This document shows, piece after piece, positions 3,254-42,808 of a stretch of 64,000 nucleotides of DNA. Origin of the DNA: Pseudomonadota bacterium (GTDB lineage Bacteria > Pseudomonadota > Gammaproteobacteria > Eutrophobiales > Eutrophobiaceae); assembly GCA_013112535.1 (NCBI GenBank), contig JABFGI010000001.1, positions 432,414 to 496,413 on the forward strand. The letters run 5' to 3'. Position 1 is the first letter of the stretch; each line of letters begins with the position of its first letter. Under the pieces are notes generated by a model that saw nothing but the letters and a program-made list of their open reading frames with translations, was not told where the DNA came from and made no database searches. A program made the translations under genes and the position numbers.

Positions 3254-4993
3254 ATGCATTACATTTCAAAAGTCATCTTAAAAAATTACAAATCAATCAT
3301 CGAAGAAGAATTTCTACTTTCTCCGTATACATCATTAGTAGGTTATAACAATGCCGGCAAATCAAATATTCTCGATGGAATAAAGTGGCTTGTTAGTAAA
3401 AGTAGTCTTGATAAAAGTTGCTTTAATAATGCTGAACAAGAAATTGAAATCATCGGTGATATTGAAGGGGTAAATGAAGAACTTCTTGAGCAATTAACTG
3501 ACAACCATAGAAACTCTATTGCACCATATATTTTTGAGCAAAAACTTAGGATTCGTCGGATACAAAGTGAACCATCACTGAGCGTTAGAAATTTAAATAT
3601 TCAGGTATGGAATGAGGATAATCAAGATTGGTCAAATAATCCTGCAGGTATTGAAAATGCTATAAAACAACTCTTCCCAGAACCAATAGAAATTGGTGCA
3701 ATGGAAGATTCTGCTGAAGATGTTTCTAAATTTAAATCTAGTACTACAATAGGTAAACTTATTGCTGAAGTAATGTCTCCTATTGAAGTAAATCATTCAG
3801 AAGCAATTACAACTGCCTTAAATGGACTTAAAGAAAGATTCGATGCTGATGGACAAGATCGTGCAGAAGAATTGAATCAGTTTGATCAGGATGCCACCGC
3901 TAAGCTTCAGGAACTATTTCCAGGCATTGAAATTAAAATGCATATTCCTACCCCAGAACTAAAAGAAGTATTTAAAAGCGGAACAATAAAAGTATATGAA
4001 AATGAACAAAGAAGAGACTTGTCTGCTTTTGGCCATGGAACACAACGATCTATTCAAATGGCATTGATTCGACACTTAGCCGAAGTACAACAAAATCAAC
4101 AGAATAGAGTAAGCAATACTTTATTACTTATTGATGAGCCTGAACTATATTTGCATCCACAAGCAGTAGAACAAGTACGTTCAGCATTGAAAGCTTTATC
4201 TATAATTGGATATCAAGTTATTTTCAGTACACATTCTCCACAAATGATTCCGTCTGAAGATATAAAATATACTTTACTAATAAGGAAACATTTAGAGCGA
4301 GGCACTTATGCTAGAAAACGTCTTAAGGATGCAATAGACGAAGTTATTGAAAATGCTTTAACACAGTTTGAATTGTTGTTTTCACTTGAAAATGCCAATG
4401 CTATTTTATTTTCAGAAAAAGTAATACTTACTGAAGGAAAGACAGAAAAGAAATTAATCCCACATCTTTTTTCGCACCATCATTCCAAAACACTTGGGCA
4501 AGAAAAATTGGCACTTGTTGGACAAGGCGGTGTAGATAACACATCAAAAGCAATAAGCGTACTTGAAGTAATGGATTTGCCATGCAAAGCTATAGTCGAT
4601 CTTGATTTTGCTTTTAAAGGTGCAGTTACAAACGGTTTAATTGATGCGGAGGATCAGAATCTGAATAGCTGTAAAGATAAGTTTTTAGAAAATGATGAAA
4701 TTGAATTATCAGATGATGGATTGCCTAAAAATGGTGGCGGGTTAACTCCATCACAGGCTTATAAATGGTTAGCTGAACAAAATGATATGCAACAGGCAAT
4801 ACAAGCATTACATCTAATATTGAGGAAAAATAATATTTGGTTGTGGAAAAAAGGTGATATCGAAGTACATTTAGGGCTTAAATCAAAAACTGAACGTGTA
4901 TGGGCGACATATAAACAACGTTTAATTGATGAAAATTTTGAACAAGTTGTTACTGATCCAGAAGTTGTTGAAATGCTCAACTGGATTTCCTAA
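3254..4993 (+). CDS. OLD-family ATP-dependent endonuclease (AAA ATPase + TOPRIM)
   Basis: The 579-residue protein opens with an SMC/RecF-like ABC ATPase: Walker A GYNNAGKSN at 30-38 (Lys36), a Q-loop/signature region near 255-270 (FGHGTQRS), Walker B LLLIDEPELYLHP near 295 and the H-loop FSTHSPQMIP near 325. After about residue 390 comes a TOPRIM nuclease domain with the acidic Glu in VILTEGKTEKK and the DLDF pair near 450. This is the class 1 OLD layout, known from P2 Old and related anti-phage nucleases. No UvrD-like partner (as in Gabija) is present. The neighbour 105 bases downstream is a proteasome-fold protein. A ribosome-binding site (TTAGGAGC) precedes the start. Confidence 0.9.
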   Translation: MHYISKVILKNYKSIIEEEFLLSPYTSLVGYNNAGKSNILDGIKWLVSKSSLDKSCFNNAEQEIEIIGDIEGVNEELLEQLTDNHRNSIAPYIFEQKLRIRRIQSEPSLSVRNLNIQVWNEDNQDWSNNPAGIENAIKQLFPEPIEIGAMEDSAEDVSKFKSSTTIGKLIAEVMSPIEVNHSEAITTALNGLKERFDADGQDRAEELNQFDQDATAKLQELFPGIEIKMHIPTPELKEVFKSGTIKVYENEQRRDLSAFGHGTQRSIQMALIRHLAEVQQNQQNRVSNTLLLIDEPELYLHPQAVEQVRSALKALSIIGYQVIFSTHSPQMIPSEDIKYTLLIRKHLERGTYARKRLKDAIDEVIENALTQFELLFSLENANAILFSEKVILTEGKTEKKLIPHLFSHHHSKTLGQEKLALVGQGGVDNTSKAISVLEVMDLPCKAIVDLDFAFKGAVTNGLIDAEDQNLNSCKDKFLENDEIELSDDGLPKNGGGLTPSQAYKWLAEQNDMQQAIQALHLILRKNNIWLWKKGDIEVHLGLKSKTERVWATYKQRLIDENFEQVVTDPEVVEMLNWIS

Positions 4994-5098: not shown

Positions 5099-5905
5099 AT
5101 GACTTTTTGTTTTGCTTGGAAAAATGATAAAGCAGTTTTTCTAGTAGCTGATTCAGCAGTAACTGTTTTTTCGGAACAATCATCCGTAAATGAACAATGC
5201 TCGTCTTTTGGAGAACCTGTAGTCTCAAACAAAAATATTTCTATTTATGATGGCGCTTTAAAAATACTCAAGATTTATGCTAATTGTGCTGTCGCTATAG
5301 CTGGAGATTCAGACTCTGCATACAATATTTATGATTTCTTGTATGAAAATTATGAAGAAGGAATTAATTTAAATGCATTAATTAGTTTAATGGCAAAAAG
5401 TAATTTGCCATTAGAAAAAGGTAAATCTGTGTCATTAATAATAGCAAGGTTAGAGAACAATAAGCCTGAACTCATTTTGTGGGAATCAGAGAAATCTGAA
5501 ACTATATATTCTAACCAGAATTATTTTCATATAGGAAAAACCATTTATGATTTTACTGGCTTTGCTAAAACATCTGTTGATATGTTTAGAAAGCCAATAA
5601 AAGGAGTGATTTTTGATAATAGTAGAATTCTTAACTCTGTAATTGCAATTTATCAAGCTTTGGTGATTTTTTGTCAAACTATGCAAGAAGGTGTGGGAGG
5701 GCTGATAAATGGTTTAATGATTGATTCAGAAGGTGTTAAATGGAATTCTGATACTGAATATATGTTATATGAACATGGTATGAAAAATAACAACTGGATT
5801 ACAGTTGGTGAAAGAGATGAGGGAATATGTTTGTTTTCAAATATTACAAAGAAAAAGTTTACTATATTTAATTCGACTACTGCGGGGTCAGGTCTTGAAT
5901 CTTGA
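5099..5905 (+). CDS. Proteasome-beta-like Ntn-hydrolase protein next to the OLD nuclease
   Basis: The 268-residue protein begins MTFCFAW, then LVADSAVT near 15-22, DGALKILKI near 51-59 and AVAIAGDSDSA near 63-73. This is the order seen in proteasome beta/HslV-type Ntn hydrolases: nucleophile Thr2, Asp18, Lys55 and the glycine loop, with an insertion between Asp and Lys. Self-processing or simple Met removal would expose the Thr. The C-terminus is odd: its last residues AGSGLES are encoded by a dispersed repeat (5880-5935), so the original end was replaced. No ribosome-binding site is obvious upstream. A peptidase or amidase role is inferred from the fold; the substrate is unknown. Confidence 0.65.
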   Translation: MTFCFAWKNDKAVFLVADSAVTVFSEQSSVNEQCSSFGEPVVSNKNISIYDGALKILKIYANCAVAIAGDSDSAYNIYDFLYENYEEGINLNALISLMAKSNLPLEKGKSVSLIIARLENNKPELILWESEKSETIYSNQNYFHIGKTIYDFTGFAKTSVDMFRKPIKGVIFDNSRILNSVIAIYQALVIFCQTMQEGVGGLINGLMIDSEGVKWNSDTEYMLYEHGMKNNNWITVGERDEGICLFSNITKKKFTIFNSTTAGSGLES

Positions 5906-6264: not shown

Positions 6265-6396
6265 ATGGATGAAATAATCCCAACAAATCCAGATATTAAA
6301 TCTGACAAGGAATTACTAGAGGATTTGATAATGGATAGTGAACTAGATAGATTAGAATCGCTAACTTCCGCTGCGGGGTCAGGTCTTGAATCTTGA
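6265..6396 (+). pseudogene. 43-codon ORF truncated by repeat insertion
   Basis: The frame reads MDEIIPTNPDIKSDKELLED and ends SAAGSGLES, with the last seven codons supplied by the repeat copy at 6371. The native part is an acidic helical start of an unidentified protein. Its tail is identical to that of the Ntn-like gene at 5099, which shows both were cut by the same element. Probably non-functional. Confidence 0.45.
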
Positions 6397-6428: not shown

Positions 6429-6533
6429 ATATAATAAATATACAATAAGTACATGGATTCTGAACATCAAAACCAAATATCAACACAAGAGTTGCGGGGT
6501 CAGGCCTTACATTTGACAATAATGAGTCATTAA
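6429..6533 (+). pseudogene. 5' remnant of the 161-residue gene family
   Basis: ATATACAATAAG then ATG at 6453 reads MDSEHQNQIST. It matches the leader and start at 11376 (MESDHHQAVSK, preceded by ATATACAATAAG). Homology stops at 6492, where a further TGCGGGGTCAGG repeat begins, and the frame then closes at 6533. Only the first dozen codons survive. Confidence 0.55.
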
Positions 6534-10216: not shown

Positions 10217-10530
10217 GTTTAGTTAAAGCTGTACCAATAAATAAAAAAAGAATCAGAGCACTATATCTTTATCATGGAACTTGAAGTATGACTAAAGCAA
10301 AACGTTTCTTTGCTTATTTCTTGTTGTTCTGTAGTTCTCTAATTTGTTTTACCACGTTGCTCTCAATATTTGGGTCGAACCTACATAAGCCATTGATATT
10401 AATAAATAAATACTAAAAACAACTCCCTTTTAAGCCTTAAACAGGCCATTTCATAGTCAAAAAATAGACTTTAAGCCGTGTTACTAATGAAATTTTGCAT
10501 TAGAGAGTGAGAATTTTTGTGCTTTTTATT
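10217..10530. pseudogene. Gene-free stretch with a 161/235-residue operon remnant and repeat
   Basis: The stretch 10257-10370 matches the junction of the genes at 11376 and 11858. It reads the end of the first (IMELEV and stop) and the first two dozen codons of the second (MTKAKRFFAYFLLFCSSLIC) in the same overlapping arrangement. It is broken at a repeat block (10371-10405) also present at 8739. This is the remains of another copy of the operon. Confidence 0.6.
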
Positions 10531-11375: not shown

Positions 11376-11861
11376 ATGGAGTCTGACCATCATCAAGCTG
11401 TATCAAAGCCAATCATCAGGAACGGCTACAAATTCCAATTTGAGTTTAATGGTTTGTCATTCCGTGCCGGTGGTTCATCGGTTTCCGGTAAAGAAGCTGT
11501 TTATGTCAATGATGAACTTGTTTCAAGTAAACGTTCTCAATCAACTTTAAGTGAACATGAATTTTCAGTGGATGGAAATAATTATAAGCTCGAGTTCGAA
11601 GTGCTTGATAAATCAAAAGGGGAGTTGGCTTGTCGATTGTATTGCGAGGACAAGTTGGTCAAGTTATTCGCCTCGCATCCAAAACGTTTGTTTTTCACCA
11701 AGCCGCTGTTTGGTATCAGTGTGATTGTCGCTTTATTAATTCATGATGACATTATTACCAGTTTGTCATTAAGCCATGTGTTTAGTTTTATGGCTGTGTT
11801 ACTAGCTATTGAAGTTATATATCCCATGCGGCATATCTGGATCATGGAGCTTGAAGTATGA
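11376..11861 (+). CDS. Unknown 161-residue membrane protein, family copy 1 (intact)
   Basis: Residues 14-100 form a beta-rich soluble domain (YKFQFEFNGLSFRAGG, HEFSVDGNNYKLEFEVL). Two hydrophobic segments follow (about 108-124 and 130-150), so the domain is tethered to the membrane. The family occurs here as two intact copies (also 16799), one frameshifted copy (15001) and short remnants (6453, 10257), which I do not recognise from named families. The copy overlaps the 235-residue gene by ATGA. The segment encoding GNNYKLEFEVLDKSKGELAC is nearly identical in DNA among copies, suggesting recent duplication or gene conversion. Confidence 0.65.
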   Translation: MESDHHQAVSKPIIRNGYKFQFEFNGLSFRAGGSSVSGKEAVYVNDELVSSKRSQSTLSEHEFSVDGNNYKLEFEVLDKSKGELACRLYCEDKLVKLFASHPKRLFFTKPLFGISVIVALLIHDDIITSLSLSHVFSFMAVLLAIEVIYPMRHIWIMELEV

Positions 11862-12565
11862 CAAAAACGAAACGTGCTTTTGCTTACTTCCTGTTGCTCT
11901 GTGGTTCACTGATCTGTTTTATCACGTTGGCCTGGATAGTGAGTTATTTTATAGAGCGTGGTTTTACGCTAGCAGATTTAAAAGCGTCCTTTACTTCTGA
12001 ATTCTTATGGTGGGCTCCGGTCGGTGTGCTTGGTATTCCCGGTATTATCATGATTCATAAAGCCAGGCGTTTGTTGAAGGAAGGTAATATTTCTGCATCC
12101 TCAGTTGGTGAAGTTGCTATCTTGTTTGCCATCATGGGGATTTTAGGAGCGATGGTCTATCCACCTGACAACTTCAGTTTTATTGCGGCGAGTATTATTA
12201 CGGATGGTGTGAAAGCAGTTGAAGAAGTTCAGCGTGATATAGAAGAACATCATTCGTTATATGGACATTTCCCCAATAGTACTGATGATCTTGAGTTTGA
12301 TTTGCCGAATCCTGATGAGTTTAAACATATCCAATCTTTGTCAGTGGGGCAGTCCGGTCGAATAATAATTACGTATGATACACGCGATATCGATTGGCAC
12401 TACAAGTGGTGGCATCGTCTATTTTTACTCGAAAACAATGATCTGACAGACAAAACATTGATCCTTGTTCCTTTAGTTAATGGTAACACCATCACTTGGG
12501 ATGAATGTAATGAAGGCACCGTGCCGCAACACAATCGACACTTTAAATGCTCGGGGCATATGTAA
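11858..12565 (+). CDS. Membrane protein with C-terminal type IV pilin-like domain
   Basis: Three hydrophobic segments (about 8-32, 50-68 and 85-105) are followed by a soluble domain from about residue 110. That domain reads VKAVEEVQRDIEEHHSLYGHF, here split as AVEEVQRDIEEHHS and LYGHFPNSTDDLEF, then SGRIIITYD, LILVPLVNGNTITWDEC and HNRHFKC. The order of a helix with a YGxFP turn, G-x-I-x-I-T-Y, L-x-L-x-P and W-x-C with a final Cys is that of the type IV pilin globular domain with its disulfide. The prepilin cleavage motif is absent, replaced by a multi-pass membrane part. It is coupled to the 161-residue gene; function unknown. Confidence 0.6.
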   Translation: MTKTKRAFAYFLLLCGSLICFITLAWIVSYFIERGFTLADLKASFTSEFLWWAPVGVLGIPGIIMIHKARRLLKEGNISASSVGEVAILFAIMGILGAMVYPPDNFSFIAASIITDGVKAVEEVQRDIEEHHSLYGHFPNSTDDLEFDLPNPDEFKHIQSLSVGQSGRIIITYDTRDIDWHYKWWHRLFLLENNDLTDKTLILVPLVNGNTITWDECNEGTVPQHNRHFKCSGHM

Positions 12566-14087: not shown

Positions 14088-14215
14088 AAATCATTACATT
14101 TGATTAGTTGTGCCGATATTTCTATCGTCACTTAAATTTGAATTAATTGAACCAGGTATTTCCCGGGACACTTTCAGTACCATGCTACGAGCAATAATGT
14201 AAAAGACGGAATTCC
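14088..14215 (-). pseudogene. RND-pump 3' end remnant with its hairpin
   Basis: Read on the minus strand, this gives VFYIIARSMVLKVSRE, closely matching the C-terminus of the RND pump at 19098 (VFYVIIRGMVLKASRE). Immediately beyond is GTGCCGATATTTCTATCGTC (14110-14129), one base off the hairpin that follows the real pump gene at 19054-19077. Both the coding end and the terminator were therefore copied from a related RND gene, and the rest is gone. The bases from 14216 to 14327 show no further feature. Confidence 0.7.
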
Positions 14216-14897: not shown

Positions 14898-15000
14898 ACT
14901 TTATAGATTGGTACTGAATTCCAGAATTCAATAAAGAGTTGCAACATTATGTTGATCAGTGCCAATTGATTTGTTGTTGTGGCAACTTGATAATGAATTT

Positions 15001-15260
15001 ATGGAGTCCGAACATCATCAAACTGTATTAAAATCAGTAATCAGGAACGGCTACGATTATCGATTCGAGTTTAATGGTTTGTCATTTCGCCCGGTGGCTC
15101 ATCGCTTACCGGTAAAGAAATCGTTTATGTCAATGATGAATTTGTCTCAACTAAACGTTCCCTGTCTACCTTGAGCGAGCATGAATTTTCAGTGGATGGA
15201 AATAATTATAAGCTCGAGTTCGAAGTGCTTGATAAATCAAAAGCGGAGTTGGCTTGTTAA
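15001..15260 (+). pseudogene. 161-residue family copy 2, frameshifted and truncated
   Basis: From ATG 15001 the frame reads MESEHHQTVLKSVIRNGYDY and on to FEFNGLSFRP, then shifts because one base is missing relative to copy 1 (CGCCCGGTGG against CGTGCCGGTGG). In the restored frame it continues to DKSKAELAC and stops where the other copies read on. The membrane segments are lost. Its leader (GCCAATTGATTTG) resembles those of the other family members. Confidence 0.8.
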
Positions 15261-16798: not shown

Positions 16799-17284
16799 AT
16801 GCAATTCGAAAATGATCAACCAGTATCGTCGCCGGTAATCAGAAACGGTTATGATTTTCAATTCGAGTTTAATGGTTTGTCATTCCGTGGCGGTGGTTCA
16901 CCGCTTTCCGGGAAAGAGTTCGTTTATGTCAATGATGATCTTGTTTCAAGTAAACGTTCAAGGTCGACCTTGAGCAAACATGAATTTTCAGTGGATGGAA
17001 ATAATTATAAACTCGAATTCGAGGTGCTTGATAAATCAAAAGGTGAGTTGGCTTGTCGTTTGTATTACGAGGACAAATTGGTCAAGTTATTTGCTGCACA
17101 TCCGAAACGACTGTTTATCACCAAGCCTTTGTTTGCGATCAGTGTGATTGTCGCTTTATTAATTCATGATGACATTATTACCAGTCTGTCACTGAGTTAT
17201 GTTCTGGGTTTTATGGCGTTGCTAGTCGCTATTGAAGTTATTTATCCACTACGGCATATCTGGATTATGGAACTTGAAGTGTGA
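16799..17284 (+). CDS. 161-residue membrane protein, family copy 3 (intact)
   Basis: This copy matches the gene at 11376 over its whole length, with an N-terminal beta-rich domain (DFQFEFNGLSFRGGG) and two C-terminal membrane segments (FAISVIVALLIHDDIITSLS and a second helix). Substitutions concentrate at the extreme N-terminus and in the last helix. Instead of the pilin-like 235-residue partner, it is followed 56 bases later by a 140-residue anchored protein, so the family swaps partners. Function unknown. Confidence 0.65.
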   Translation: MQFENDQPVSSPVIRNGYDFQFEFNGLSFRGGGSPLSGKEFVYVNDDLVSSKRSRSTLSKHEFSVDGNNYKLEFEVLDKSKGELACRLYYEDKLVKLFAAHPKRLFITKPLFAISVIVALLIHDDIITSLSLSYVLGFMALLVAIEVIYPLRHIWIMELEV

Positions 17285-18529: not shown

Positions 18530-19053
18530 TGAATAGAGAACACCTGGAACATATCATCAGAGCATCTGGAAAGATAATTGACGAAAAAGAATTCTTTGTC
18601 ATTGGTAGTTAATCAATTCTTGGTCAATACCCTGAAGCTCCCGATGAATTACTTGTTTCAAATGAAGCAGACATCATATGTAAAATTAATCCTTCCAAAA
18701 GTGATTTGATTGACGGGGTGATAGGGGAACACTCAAGTTTTCATGAAAGTTTTGGCTATTATGCGCAAGGTGTCGGGTTTGAAACAGCGACATTACCAGA
18801 AGGATGGGAAGAAAGATGCATCGCAATAGAAAATGAAAATACGGGTGGTTGTATAGCTTATTGTATTGAATTGAATGATACCTGCATCAGTAAATATGTT
18901 GCTAACAGAGATAAAGATCATAAATATATTTCTGAATGAATAAAGAGCAATCTTTTAGATAAAAATGTTTTATTAGAAAGGTTGATTTTGACAAGCTTAG
19001 ATGACGCTCAATCAAGCATGATAAAAAAGAAAATTGAACGAGATTTTAATTAG
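18529..19053 (+). pseudogene. DUF6036-like nucleotidyltransferase toxin with two nonsense codons
   Basis: One continuous frame of 174 codons plus TAG is interrupted by TAA at codon 28 (18610-18612) and TGA at codon 137 (18937-18939). Around the first, FFVIGS-stop-SILGQYPEAP shows the nucleotidyltransferase GSQS turn with the Gln codon CAA turned into TAA. Downstream, ADIICKI supplies the DxD-like position, and the normal family end (LDKNVLLERL, then IERDF) follows the second stop. The toxin is dead while its antitoxin frame upstream is intact. Confidence 0.8.
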
Positions 19054-19077
19054 TAGTGCCGATATTTCTATCGGCAC
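19054..19077. terminator. Hairpin at the end of the RND operon
   Basis: AGTGCCGATA TTTC TATCGGCACT, with the perfect stem centred at 19065, lies 21 bases past the minus-strand pump stop. An almost identical hairpin accompanies the RND remnant at 14110. Confidence 0.65.
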
Positions 19078-19097
19078 TTAAGTTTGAATTAGTTGAT

Positions 19098-22000
19098 CTA
19101 AGCACTTTCCCTGGATGCTTTGAGCACCATACCGCGAATGATAACGTAAAAGACCGGCGTTAAAAATAAACCGAGCATTGTTACACCTAACATTCCACTG
19201 AATACCGTTGTGCCTAATACTTGTCGCATTTCGGCACCGGCACCGGTTGCTATCATCAAAGGTACAACACCTAAAATAAATGCTAATGCCGTCATCAGAA
19301 TCGGACGTAGTCTTATTTGTGCAGCTTCGATTGCGGCATCAACATGGTTTTTACCTTCGCGTTCAAGTTGTCTTGCGAATTCAACCATTAAGATCGCATT
19401 CTTACTGGCGAGACCAATTAATACGATGAAACCAATTTGCGTTAAGATGTTGTTATCCATGCCGCGCAAGTAAACACCGGCAAGTGCAAACAGAATACAT
19501 AACGGTACGATTAAAATGATTGTGATTGGTAAGGTCCAGCTTTCGTATTGCGCCGATAACAATAAGAAAACAAACAAAACACTTAATGGAAAAATAATTA
19601 TACCGACATTGCCACCGAGTTTTTCCTGTAATGCAATTTCTGTCCATTCAAAACTGATGCCTGCTGGAAGAATATTCTTTGCCAGTTTTTCCATTTCTAT
19701 TAATGCTTCACCAGTACTTATACCGGGAACACCGGTCCCTTGTAGTTCAGCAGAAGGATAAAGATTGTAACGAACGATTCGATCAGCACCTTGTATCTGG
19801 CTTACTTTTAATATTGATCCCAGCGGCACCATTTCGCCATCACTGTTTTCAGCACGTAAACGCATGATGTCATTCGATTCTAAACGATAGGACGCATCGG
19901 CTTGTGCAATGACCTGATAGGTTTTACCGAACAAATTAAAATCATTAACGTAACTGGAACCCAGAAATATTTGTAACGTTTCAAATACATTTTCTACGGG
20001 TACATTAAGCATTTCAGATCGTGTGCGATCGATATCCAGATAATACTGAGGAGTGCTGGAATCAATCGTACTAAAGACTTGCGTTAGTTTTGGATTTTGA
20101 TTTGCTGCACCGGCAAGTTGCCATGTTGCTGCTTCAAGCGCAGGTAAACCTAAACCACTTTTATCCTGGACGATCATTTTAAAACCACCACCGCGACCCA
20201 TGCCGCGTACAGAAGGCGGTTCAACAACAAAGAATGACGCTTCTTGTATGTTGGTATTTAACGCACCATAAAGCTGACCGGCAACGGCACTGGCAGATTG
20301 TTCTTCTATACCGATGCGTTCTTCAAATGGTTTTAATAAAACAAACATGGCTGCGGAATTACTGGCAGTAGTAAAGGTTGCTGCTGAAAGTCCGGCAATC
20401 GCGACAACATTGGTAATGCCCGGATTTTCTTGCGCAACTTTTGTTGCTTTTTTTACGACTTCATCGGTGCGTTCCAGTGACGCACCTTTGGGTAAATCAA
20501 TGACCGTTATTAAATAACCTTGATCCTGTTGCGGAATAAACCCGCCCGGTACTTTTTGAAACATCATATATGTACCGCCGATTAAGATAACAAAGATGGT
20601 CAGCATGATGAGTGGGCGACGTACAAAGAAAGCAATTAACTTTCCATACTTGTTGCTTCCTGTATCGAATAAGTAATTAAAACCACGGTAAAACAGGTTT
20701 GGTTTTTTAACATTCTCATTGCTTTGGTCATTGCCGTTTTTACGATGTTCAGGTGCTTTAAGCAATAAGCGACCTAATGCCGGGCTTAATGTTAATGAGT
20801 TAAAGGCAGAGATGACAGTTGCAACAGAAATGGTTAAGGCAAACTGTTTAAAAAATGCACCGGGTATACCACCAAGAAACGCACTGGGAAGAAATACTGC
20901 AACAAGTACTAACGCCATCGAGATTAATGCACTTCCGACTTCGGTCATTGTTATTCTTGCCGCATCACGTGGTGCAACACCTTTTTCAAGGTTTCTTTGT
21001 ATGTCTTCAACAACAACGATGGCATCGTCAACAACAATACCGATTGCCAGTACCAAACCAAACAGCGACAAACTATTTAACGAATAGCCCATCGCTGCCA
21101 TAACAGCAAAGGTGCCGATTAATGAAACAGGAATAGCCGAGATAGGGATAATCGCAGCACGCCATGATTGTAAAAAGATAATAATAACGATAACGACCAG
21201 AAAGATCGCTTCGATGATTGTTAAGTAAACTTTTTCAATAGACTGTTCAATAAACTCAGTCGGGTTATAAACGATGGTATATTCAATACCGGGCGGAAAG
21301 TCTTTTGATAAGGTTTCCATGGTATTAATAATTTGATCGGCTGTTTCAAGCGCATTGCTTCCAGGACGCTGAAAGATACCAATGGCAACGGCATTCTTAC
21401 CATTTAAATAACTGTTTCTAACGTAATCTTTACTGCCGATTTCAACGCGTGCGATATCCCCAAGACGCGTTAGCCTTCCATCTTCACCGCGTTTAACAAT
21501 AACGTTACTGAATTGTTCCGGTTCAATAAAACGACCTTGTGCGGTAATCGTATATTGAAATGAATTTTCCAGTGGCATCGGTGGTTGGCCTAACTTACCA
21601 CCCGCGACTTGTACGTTTTGTGAACGTAACGAGTTGACGACTTCGGTTGCTGATAATTGAAATGCTGCCATGCGTTCCGGGTTTAACCAGATACGCATAC
21701 TGTATTCACGCGCACCGAATACAATCAGTTCACCGATGCCGCCAATACGTGCAAGTTGATCTCGTACCTGTAATAGGGCGTAGTTACTAATGTAAAGTTC
21801 GTCCTGACTATTATCGGGTGATAATAAATGCACCACCATCATAAAGTTGGGCGAACTTTTTTGTGCAATGATACCCAATCGTCTTACTTCTTCCGGTAAC
21901 TTTGGTTCTGCTTTTGCAATTCGGTTTTGTACCTGAACTTGTGCTGTATCAAGATCAGTACCTTGTTTAAAGGTTATCGTTAATGACATCGCGCCATCAC

Positions 22001-39121: not shown

Positions 39122-39166
39122 TATTCTATACAGGCGCAGTAAATGGATGCCAAAACAGGATTAATT

Positions 39167-40279
39167 ATGAATAAACAATCGTCTTACTTTCTCTCACTGA
39201 TGCTCTTCAGTATTGCATTATCCGCTGAAACATTTACCTCTGAAAAACATAACTTCACAATAGAAACTGTGGTTGAAGGACTGGAACATCCCTGGTCGGT
39301 CGATTTTCTACCCGACGGACGCTTTCTTGTTACAGAAAAGCCCGGAAGATTAAGAATTGTATCGAATGGACAATTATCCGACCCGGTATCAGGATTACCA
39401 AAGATAAAAGAAAAAGGACAGGGCGGTTTACTCGATATTGCACTGGATCCGGATTATGCGAATAACCAAATAATCTATTTAAGCTATTCAGCAAAAGGCA
39501 AGGGCGGAGTCGGCACCGAAGTTGTTAAAGGCAAGTTAGTTGGTAATGAATTAAAAGATGCACAGGTTATTTTTAAACTCACACCAAAAACAAGTAAAGG
39601 ACAACATTTTGGTTCGCGTTTATTGTTCGCAAAAGATAGCAGTTTATTTATTACCTTAGGTGATCGCGGTGATAAAGATCGCGCACAGGATCTAAATGAC
39701 CATGCCGGATCATTAATCCATATTAATAAAGATGGTTCCATACCAGAAGATAATCCTTTCGTTAATAACCCCAATGCAAAACCGGAAATTTATACTTACG
39801 GTAATCGTAATATGCAGGGTATCGCCATGCATCCGGAAACAGGTGATATCTGGACTATAGAACACGGCCCACAAGGCGGAGATGAACTCAACTTGATGAA
39901 AGCGGGTGTAAATTATGGCTGGCCTGTTATTACCTATGGTGTGAATTATGTCATCGGTACAAAAATTGGCGAAGGCACAGAAAAAGAAGGTATGGCTCAA
40001 CCCATACACTATTGGGTACCATCAATCGCAACATCAAGCTTGCTGTTTTATACGGGCGATAAATTTCCAAACTGGAAAGGCAATGCCTTTGTCAGTTCAT
40101 TAAAGTTCGGTCAACTGGCAAGGCTTGAAATACAAGATAATAAAGTTATTAAAGAAGAGCGATTAATCAATGGTAAAGTAGGGCGAATAAGAGAAGTGCA
40201 GCAAGGACTGGATGGTTATATCTACATGATCACTGATGAGTCAAATGGACGCTTACTTAGAATTAAACCTTTAGAATAA
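39167..40279 (+). CDS. PQQ-dependent soluble sugar dehydrogenase (aldose type)
   Basis: ATG 39143 is in frame, but ATG 39167 has an AGGA site seven bases ahead and a signal peptide directly after it (SSYFLSLMLFSIALSAETF), giving 370 residues. The six-bladed propeller motifs GLEHPWSVDFLPDGRFLVTE, GQGGLLDIALDPDYA, HFGSRLLF, GDRGDKDRAQDLNDHAGSLI and EHGPQGGDELN carry the PQQ and calcium ligands. It oxidises aldoses in the periplasm. A near-identical piece of its 3' part reappears at 41029, inside a chimeric gene. Confidence 0.92.
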   Translation: MNKQSSYFLSLMLFSIALSAETFTSEKHNFTIETVVEGLEHPWSVDFLPDGRFLVTEKPGRLRIVSNGQLSDPVSGLPKIKEKGQGGLLDIALDPDYANNQIIYLSYSAKGKGGVGTEVVKGKLVGNELKDAQVIFKLTPKTSKGQHFGSRLLFAKDSSLFITLGDRGDKDRAQDLNDHAGSLIHINKDGSIPEDNPFVNNPNAKPEIYTYGNRNMQGIAMHPETGDIWTIEHGPQGGDELNLMKAGVNYGWPVITYGVNYVIGTKIGEGTEKEGMAQPIHYWVPSIATSSLLFYTGDKFPNWKGNAFVSSLKFGQLARLEIQDNKVIKEERLINGKVGRIREVQQGLDGYIYMITDESNGRLLRIKPLE

Positions 40280-40331
40280 AATAAAAACGAAATTATTATT
40301 TCAGTATAATTTATTATTATATAAATATAGA

Positions 40332-40892
40332 ATGCGATTTTATTTTTTAGTCATCATTTTTCTTTCTACTACGGCAAGAGCAGAACTCTTGCTCGATACA
40401 AAATATATTTATTATTCAGTGTCTTCATCATCGAAACATGGCTTATTAGATAAATTAAATACGGCTACACCTATTAAACAAGGTGGGGATAACTTTCATG
40501 GTCGCACTGATTCGAAAATAAGCTGGTATTTTTGGTGGAAATCAACAAGTAATAAATGTCAGATTAATAAGGTAAAGGTTAATCTGGAAATAATCTTCAC
40601 AATGCCAGAACTGGAAAATTCAACTAACGAAGTCCGTGAAGTATGGAAGCGTTGGTATCCAAAGTTGCTTCAGCATGAAAAAGGTCATGAACGTAATGCT
40701 TTAAATATTGCGAAAAAAATTGAAAAAGGAATTTCACAGCTTCCAGTATATTATAATTGTAAGATGCTTGAAAATGCTGCTAATAAGTTAGGTGATGACT
40801 TGTTAGATAAGCTTCATCAAATGGATAAAGACTATGATAGTCTAACTAATCACGGCGAAACTGAAGGCGCATGCTTATCTTCTCATCTTTAG
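40332..40892 (+). CDS. Secreted DUF922-family putative Zn-dependent protease
   Basis: In this 186-residue protein a signal peptide (RFYFLVIIFLSTTARA) precedes a domain with GRTDSKISWYFWWKS, NKVKVNLEIIFTMPEL and QHEKGHERNALNIAKKIEKG. The HEKGHE sequence provides an HExxH-like metal site. This arrangement matches DUF922, predicted to be a periplasmic metalloprotease. It is followed by the chimeric gene and transcribed with the sugar dehydrogenase strand. Confidence 0.8.
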   Translation: MRFYFLVIIFLSTTARAELLLDTKYIYYSVSSSSKHGLLDKLNTATPIKQGGDNFHGRTDSKISWYFWWKSTSNKCQINKVKVNLEIIFTMPELENSTNEVREVWKRWYPKLLQHEKGHERNALNIAKKIEKGISQLPVYYNCKMLENAANKLGDDLLDKLHQMDKDYDSLTNHGETEGACLSSHL

Positions 40893-40925
40893 TAAAAGAA
40901 ATTGTATTTAGAATAACTATAAAAT

Positions 40926-41240
40926 ATGTCACGAGTAAAAGTAGTTGTTGACGATTACGGTTTTTTTGGTATTGGAACTTTAAATAATACGGATAAAATT
41001 AATATCGGTACGTTTGACAAATTATCAAAATGGAAAGGCAATGCCTTTGTCAGTTCATTAAAGTTCGGGCAACTGGCAAGGCTTGAAATGCAAGGTAATA
41101 AAGTTATTAAAGAAGAGCGATTAATCAATGGTAAAGTAGGTCGAATAAGAGAAGTGCAGCAAGGATCGGATAGTTATACCTATGTGGTCACTGATGAATT
41201 AAATAGCCAGTTGTTAAGGCTTATTCCTGCGGAAATTTAA
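40926..41240 (+). pseudogene. Chimeric gene: SPOUT methyltransferase start fused to sugar dehydrogenase end
   Basis: The first 28 codons (MSRVKVVVDDYGFFGIGTLN) follow the start of the methyltransferase at 42341, and codons from about 36 (WKGNAFVSSLKFGQLARLEM) follow the dehydrogenase C-terminus at about 40074-40270. The second part is almost identical in DNA to its parent, the first more diverged. The frame is open for 104 codons across the junction. It lacks the catalytic parts of both parents, so it is presumably non-functional or a newly formed small protein. Confidence 0.85.
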
Positions 41241-41340
41241 AGCTTCAATAGGTAAATATTAATATTTTCAATAATATAGAAGAAATCTAGTAATACTAAT
41301 ATAATCATTTGTATTCATTGGCATGAATAATGTATTTCTG

Positions 41341-41362
41341 TTTAGCAATGGGTATTGCTAAA
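41341..41362 (+). promoter_or_regulatory. Palindrome abutting the diguanylate cyclase start
   Basis: TTTAGCAAT-GGGT-ATTGCTAAA forms a perfect 9-base-arm palindrome whose last A is the A of the ATG. It could be an operator or an RNA hairpin that limits ribosome access. Confidence 0.5.
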
Positions 41363-42276
41363 TGATTAATTCATACGATTTTTTACATCTTGTTCTCGAT
41401 TCTATTACCGGGCATATAACTGTAATCAATGAAGAAGCTGACATTGTTTACGTTAATAAAAGCTGGAATGAATTTGGATTAGATAATTCATGTCACATTG
41501 TTCCAAAATGGGATGGCGTGAATTACCTTGATGAATGTGATAAAGCTGCTGCCAAGGGTGATGATATAGGAGGTCAGGCTGCTGCTGGAATTCGCGAGGT
41601 GATGAATAATGAACAGCGATTATTTTATTTGGAATATCCTTGTCATAGCCCCGACGAACAACGGTGGTTTATGATGCGTGTTACACCCTTCTCTATGCAA
41701 GGGAATAAATATTATGTGATTATTCATCAAAATATAACAGAAAGAAAACTGGCTGAAGAAAAGGTAGAAGCTATATCACGCCTTGATGGCCTTACCGGAA
41801 TATCAAATCGCAGGTGTTTCGATGAATTTTTTCATCAAGAGTGGAATCGTTGTTCAAGACTAAAATCACCAGTATCGTTTGCCATAATAGATGTTGACTA
41901 TTTCAAAAAGATCAATGATACCTATGGACATCTTGCAGGAGATGATTGTCTTATAAAACTTGCGCAAGTTTTAGAAAAGTATACTAAAAGACCTGGTGAT
42001 ATGTGTGCTAGATATGGCGGTGATGAATTCGTGATTGTATTCGGTCAGACTTCATTGGATATATCTTCTGATTTAATTAATAATGTTTATAAAGAAATTT
42101 GTTTGCTGAATATTCCCAATGAGAAATCTCCAATATCTTCTACTGTAACAGTAAGTATTGGTTTAGCAGATATGACTCCTGGTAAAGTGAATAACGAAAA
42201 TAAACTCATAGATAAAACAGATAAGATGTTATATTCAGCAAAAGAAAATGGAAGAAACCAGGTATTCATGTCATAA
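41362..42276 (+). CDS. PAS-GGDEF diguanylate cyclase
   Basis: In this 304-residue soluble protein an N-terminal PAS domain (about 8-125, ITVINEEADIVYVNKSWNEF and a PAC end VIIHQNITERKLAEEK) precedes the GGDEF domain (about 135-300) with DVDYFKKINDTYGHLAGDDC and ARYGGDEFVIVF. It should synthesise cyclic di-GMP in response to a PAS-bound ligand. The I-site RxxD is not obvious. It is a single gene between the chimera and the methyltransferase. Confidence 0.9.
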   Translation: MINSYDFLHLVLDSITGHITVINEEADIVYVNKSWNEFGLDNSCHIVPKWDGVNYLDECDKAAAKGDDIGGQAAAGIREVMNNEQRLFYLEYPCHSPDEQRWFMMRVTPFSMQGNKYYVIIHQNITERKLAEEKVEAISRLDGLTGISNRRCFDEFFHQEWNRCSRLKSPVSFAIIDVDYFKKINDTYGHLAGDDCLIKLAQVLEKYTKRPGDMCARYGGDEFVIVFGQTSLDISSDLINNVYKEICLLNIPNEKSPISSTVTVSIGLADMTPGKVNNENKLIDKTDKMLYSAKENGRNQVFMS

Positions 42277-42340
42277 AGCTGCTTTAAAAGTGTAAAACGT
42301 TATTTCGTTTTTTTATATAGATTTCTAAAAAACAATAAAA

Positions 42341-42808
42341 ATGTCCCGAGTTAAAAACATTAAGGATGATTACGGTTTTTTTGGTATTGGAATAATAAAC
42401 AATACTGATGAAATTAATATAGGTACACTCTGGCGTTCGGCTTTTATTCTGGGCGCGAGTTTTATTTTTACAGTTGGCAAGAAATATAAGCTTGAGGGAA
42501 GTGACGTTACCAAGTCGTGGACCAAGATTCCTCTATATCATTATCAAACCTTCGATGAATTAAAACAAAACCTGCCTTTTTCTACTCAATTAGTGGCTGT
42601 GGAAATGGGGGATGAGGCTATGCCTTTGGGTGAATATACTCATCCAGATCGCGCAGTTTATCTTTTAGGTAATGAAATCAGTGGCTTATCAGATCAGATT
42701 GTCTCGCAGTGCCAGTCTTTAATTAAACTTCCCGGAGAATATTCACTGAATGTCGCAGTGACGGGAAGTATTGTCATGTATGATCGCTTCAATAAAAATA
42801 ATTCATGA
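42341..42808 (+). CDS. TrmH/SpoU-family RNA 2'-O-methyltransferase
   Basis: In this 155-residue minimal SPOUT enzyme, motif 1 is NTDEINIGTLWRSAFILGA, motif 2 YLLGNEISGLSDQI and motif 3 SLNVAVTGSIVMYDR, which form the trefoil knot and SAM pocket. Length fits single-domain TrmL-like proteins. In motif 3 the usual S-L-N-V-A-x-A-x-x is nearly kept. A degraded copy of its start is found in the chimeric gene at 40926. The target RNA is not established. Confidence 0.85.
   Translation: MSRVKNIKDDYGFFGIGIINNTDEINIGTLWRSAFILGASFIFTVGKKYKLEGSDVTKSWTKIPLYHYQTFDELKQNLPFSTQLVAVEMGDEAMPLGEYTHPDRAVYLLGNEISGLSDQIVSQCQSLIKLPGEYSLNVAVTGSIVMYDRFNKNNS

Follow-up and report, generated by a model that had tools for sequence, protein, structure and literature searches.

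A chimeric open reading frame flanked by its two parent genes, and its probable origin in a local tandem duplication

Introduction

Chimeric open reading frames are known to form at the join points of tandem duplications in bacteria. Such frames consist of the 5′ part of a downstream gene followed by the 3′ part of an upstream gene, with the co-oriented parents on either side. We describe here a frame of this make-up in a gammaproteobacterium; the named genomes nearest to it are uncultured and of Thiotrichaceae type. It is unlike the join-point frames of tandem duplications in two respects: unrelated genes stand between the copies and their parents, and within the copy of the upstream gene there is a tract that resembles gene conversion. 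Our search of the literature on chimeric bacterial genes and on tandem duplications found no direct match.

Other described systems share some features of the locus. In an insertion with long target duplication (Nobusato et al. 2000, as presented in PMC1643837), a gene is inserted between direct repeats of a gene end, and the order of dehydrogenase 3′ end, DUF922 gene and dehydrogenase 3′ end reported below is of the same form. The present locus differs in having two interleaved repeats and a direct join without inserted DNA, and in lacking restriction-modification genes. By homology-facilitated illegitimate recombination (PMC3240628; discussed in PMC5361080), foreign DNA with partial gene ends could be added at a variable locus; however, no donor was found for the present locus, and its join shares only 3-4 bases. 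Finally, interlocus gene conversion between duplicates (reviewed in PMC3924818) is recognized by a short near-identical tract with diverged edges, as found here, although in this case one of the partners is a fragment and conversion would keep no gene working.

Make-up of the chimeric frame

The stretch of DNA that was analysed, the window, is 64,000 nucleotides long, and all positions are window coordinates. The upstream dehydrogenase gene is called D, the downstream methyltransferase gene M, and their partial copies inside the chimera D′ and M′; all four pieces lie on the + strand. The features of the locus are:

39143..40279, + strand: upstream parent D, a GSDH-family (PF07995) sugar dehydrogenase of 378 aa (Pfam GSDH, E=1.3e-137); single full copy in the genome
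40332..40892, + strand: DUF922 gene, between D and the chimera (Pfam PF06037, E=1.9e-38)
40906..41011, + strand: M′, copy of the start of M with about 20 nt of leader (80% over 100 nt against 42328-42426)
40926..41240, + strand: chimeric open reading frame, 104 codons, ATG to TAA
41009..41017, + strand: junction zone M′::D′, from sequence comparison
41009..41240, + strand: D′, copying the 3′ end of D as far as roughly the stop codon (220 nt, 86%)
41031..41165, + strand: apparently homogenised tract within D′ (scan statistic)
41362..42276, + strand: PAS-GGDEF gene, between the chimera and M (Pfam GGDEF, E=1.4e-44; PAS_4, E=2.1e-6)
42341..42808, + strand: downstream parent M, a SpoU/TrmH-type RNA methyltransferase of 155 aa (Pfam SpoU_methylase, E=8.1e-19)

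Both parts of the frame match their neighbours far above chance. A repeat search paired 41009-41228 with 40051-40270 for D′ (spacing 958) and 40906-41011 with 42321-42426 for M′ (106 nt, 76%, spacing 1415), and the local alignment scores of 341 and 118 compare with maxima of 61 and 53, respectively, in 200 shuffles. Over the coding part of M′, which is about the first 86 nt of the frame, 69 of 86 nt are identical to M, and the match extends roughly 20 nt 5′ of the ATG into the leader of M. At the junction, the bases TAC are common to D and the M of this genome, and TACG is common to D and the M of its relatives. Across the whole genome, D and M each have one further match, which is partial and is the chimeric frame itself.

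The sequence-only reading had described this frame as a chimera of its two flanking genes, built by local duplication and open over 104 codons. That description is borne out: its coordinates are correct to within a few bases, and extended identity is found over both pairs of segments that it had named (41029-41236 with 40074-40279, and 40926-41012 with 42341-42430). Misassembly was considered and rejected, because the D′ edges and M′ hold bases that are absent from both parents and because the contig is 674 kb long.

The chimera covers only positions 264-332 of the 332-position GSDH model (PF07995), that is, the last 69 positions rather than a full propeller domain. It has no Pfam match to the SpoU/TrmH methyltransferase family (PF00588), and hence no complete SPOUT fold with the C-terminal motifs, and an NCBIfam search placed it in no family. 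The N-terminus of D, judged by eye, resembles a signal peptide. Promoter-like sites in the region are no more numerous than in shuffled sequence.

Mosaic divergence from the parents

The divergence of D′ from D is strongly uneven. Within 41031-41165 the two differ at 4 of 135 sites, compared with 30 of 87 (34%) in the surrounding D′ sites, and none of 200 permutations gave differences as clustered as these. The same contrast is seen at third codon positions, with 3/45 differing in the tract and 13/29 outside it (p=0.00025). A sharply bounded near-identity that includes silent sites is the expected mark of a gene conversion tract. The contrast is far weaker when D is compared with its orthologues in relatives, for example that of the closest relative, G003 (15/45 third positions in the tract region, 15/29 outside), but the tract region is somewhat more conserved between D and its relatives, so that rate variation may explain part of the contrast. 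M′ differs from M at 17 of 86 sites (20%). The corresponding figure for D′ outside the tract is somewhat higher (p=0.04), and the ages of the two copies are therefore only roughly equal.

A derived-base test, using sites at which G003 and a second close relative, G004, agree with each other and differ from the parent, gives a similar picture. In the tract, D′ carries the parent's derived base at 11 of the 12 sites; the D′ edges and M′ jointly carry it at 4 of 11 (p=0.009). The tract thus has a young appearance and the D′ edges and M′ an old one, which is most simply explained by a single old duplication and a later conversion patch. On this comparison of sites, 41031-41165 would represent gene conversion between D and D′, with D as the putative donor.

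Relatives and variability of the locus

The M′::D′ fusion is absent from 57 other genomes, in which only the separate parents are found; a DNA search of the genus and searches of a genome collection and of viral contigs also gave separate parents only. In G003, D is followed by M in the same order and on the same strand, about 2.7 kb away, with NYN/PIN7 and BrnT-CopG genes between them. No trace of the chimera is seen in G003, even though the apparent age of M′ is close to that of the split between the two genomes. In most other congeners checked, D adjoins a peptidyl-prolyl-isomerase-like gene and M is located elsewhere.

The gene content of the interval from D to a ycgN-like gene differs between close relatives. 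In G003 it comprises NYN/PIN7, a BrnT/CopG toxin-antitoxin pair and katG, and in G004 it comprises EamA, a peptidase and a 5′ fragment of the ycgN-like gene. The last is an observation in its own right: a 5′ fragment of the CxxCxxCC gene (locus L039 of G004, 4053-4133) lies 5′ of the full gene, within the variable interval after D.

Two genes now separate the chimera from its parents. None of the 11 congeners has the DUF922 gene, for which 39 other genomes gave one distant match. The N-terminal part of the PAS-GGDEF protein has a match in just 1 of 19 other genomes, at 53% identity, and neither between D and M nor between D and the ycgN-like gene does G003 or G004 have a match to PAS-GGDEF. 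No DUF922 or GGDEF relative was found next to D or M in the congeners. Since congeners have neither gene at this place, each appears to have been inserted later, one per gap, into a region of variable content.

Origin of the chimera

The best explanation of the locus, and in our judgement a reasonably probable one, is a single old local tandem duplication with later insertions, drift and a conversion patch; it is better supported than two events, but is not proven. The gene order is D - M′::D′ - M in one orientation, with the 5′ part of M abutting the 3′ part of D and the parents outside, as at the join of a tandem duplication. One event is favoured because all four pieces are co-oriented and the start of the downstream gene stands against the end of the upstream gene. 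In this scenario, D and M would once have been adjacent, and the segment copied by one tandem duplication would have begun within the 3′ part of D and ended a little way into M, giving the present order and, by chance, an in-frame reading frame at the join. Later, the unrelated DUF922 and PAS-GGDEF genes would have entered the two gaps between D and M sequences, so that the copies came to lie 0.9 and 1.4 kb away from the parent genes. The chimera would since have drifted without clear protein constraint, and a recent conversion would have made a 135-bp stretch of D′ D-like again.

The gaps flanking the chimera hold different genes without homology (alignment of 41200-42341 with 40240-40926 gave no significant match), and so the duplicated unit cannot be followed through. 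For a duplicated spacer to have existed, both genes must have arrived afterwards; that neither is present here in congeners leaves room for this.

An alternative, which we regard as unlikely, is the additive integration of DNA from a diverged relative (D′-GGDEF-M or D-DUF922-M′), with homology on one side and an illegitimate join on the other, whether by homology-facilitated illegitimate recombination or as an insertion with long target duplication. The copies would then have been diverged on arrival. The variability of the interval after D would suit such a history, as would the repeated thiC 3′ end that spans an inserted gene pair elsewhere in the same genome (see below), and M′ is marginally nearer the M of G003 (73/86) than its own M (69/86). 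However, no donor with such an arrangement was found among relatives or in the genome collection, and even at its edges D′ carries D-specific derived bases at 4 of 9 scorable sites.

Two separate local duplications, with the start of M copied first and the end of D later copied onto M′, are likewise unlikely. The sequence-only reading had proposed two duplications of different age on the grounds that the dehydrogenase part is much closer to its parent. That part is indeed closer overall (86%, and 97% in the tract, against 76-80% for M′), but the excess is confined to the 135-bp tract, and over the whole of D′ (34/222) the difference from M′ is not significant (p=0.39). Outside the tract D′ is as diverged as M′ or more so, and the two ages appear to have come from averaging over a mosaic. 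Two independent events would also have had to meet end to end, on the same strand and in frame, whereas the order fits a single tandem join.

Open frame and coding constraint

Under the single-duplication account, the openness of the frame could be a matter of luck. Both pieces come from coding frames, so that a join in frame, a 1 in 3 chance, is automatically open. In simulations of random substitutions alone, 39% of frames were stop-free after 20 changes and 17% after 40. Between D and the G003 orthologue, differences at codon positions 1/2/3 split 9/4/30, whereas M′ has 5/3/9 and the part of D′ beyond the tract 10/7/13; in that part, positions 1 and 2 together exceed position 3. This pattern suggests relaxed constraint, and the chimera shows neither clear protein-level constraint nor conservation between species. 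A product, if made, would lack most of both folds and the dehydrogenase N-terminus, and is therefore unlikely to function. A selected new gene, expressed and kept as a small fusion protein with an unassigned role in this species, is very improbable: the open 104-codon frame and the partly copied M leader would accord with it, but openness is expected of an in-frame join, the codon pattern is relaxed, and the fusion has neither a counterpart in any relative nor an NCBIfam family.

The chimera is thus a probable pseudogene, a decaying join-point frame. Of the "gene birth or decay" put forward by the sequence-only reading, birth is the less fitting option: the relaxed codon pattern, and a frame that chance would often leave open, agree better with decay or with a by-product drifting neutrally. 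We regard the chimera as a genome scar of a common type, in which nothing points to a new function, and by itself it touches no long-standing open question. It would nevertheless show, in an easily read natural case, how an in-frame chimeric frame can come from a single local duplication, and how a later conversion patch can mimic an age difference between copies. In annotation the frame would appear as a hypothetical protein or partial dehydrogenase, and a pseudogene flag would be worthwhile.

Other repeats

No second interleaved double repeat was found in the approximately 0.8 Mb of the genome scanned, part of which was masked. A single repeat is present at L081:8719-10026 (G000:C1:312719-314026), where the gene identified from its sequence as thiC has its 3′ end repeated 1.15 kb downstream (~155 nt, 88%). 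The repeats enclose an inserted pair of small genes that are toxin-antitoxin-like by eye and have no Pfam or NCBIfam match; the insert was not seen in congeners. The arrangement is like the insertion with long target duplication of PMC1643837.

Several smaller repeats also lie in the window. Paralogous 161-aa genes at 11376-11861 and 16799-17284 are 84% identical over 475 nt, with a truncated third copy at 14990-15257, and 10263-10359 is a further fragment that copies 11833-11929. Another copy, of 110 nt at 80% identity (14099-14207 and 19045-19154), overlaps the end of the RND efflux pump gene; the two members are about 5 kb apart. Finally, the motif GGGTCAGGTCTTG(C) recurs between small cassettes at 5885-5898, 6376-6389 and 6497-6510, and also in intergenic regions of L038 and L039; the window holds 5 near matches to it, where 0.13 are expected by chance.
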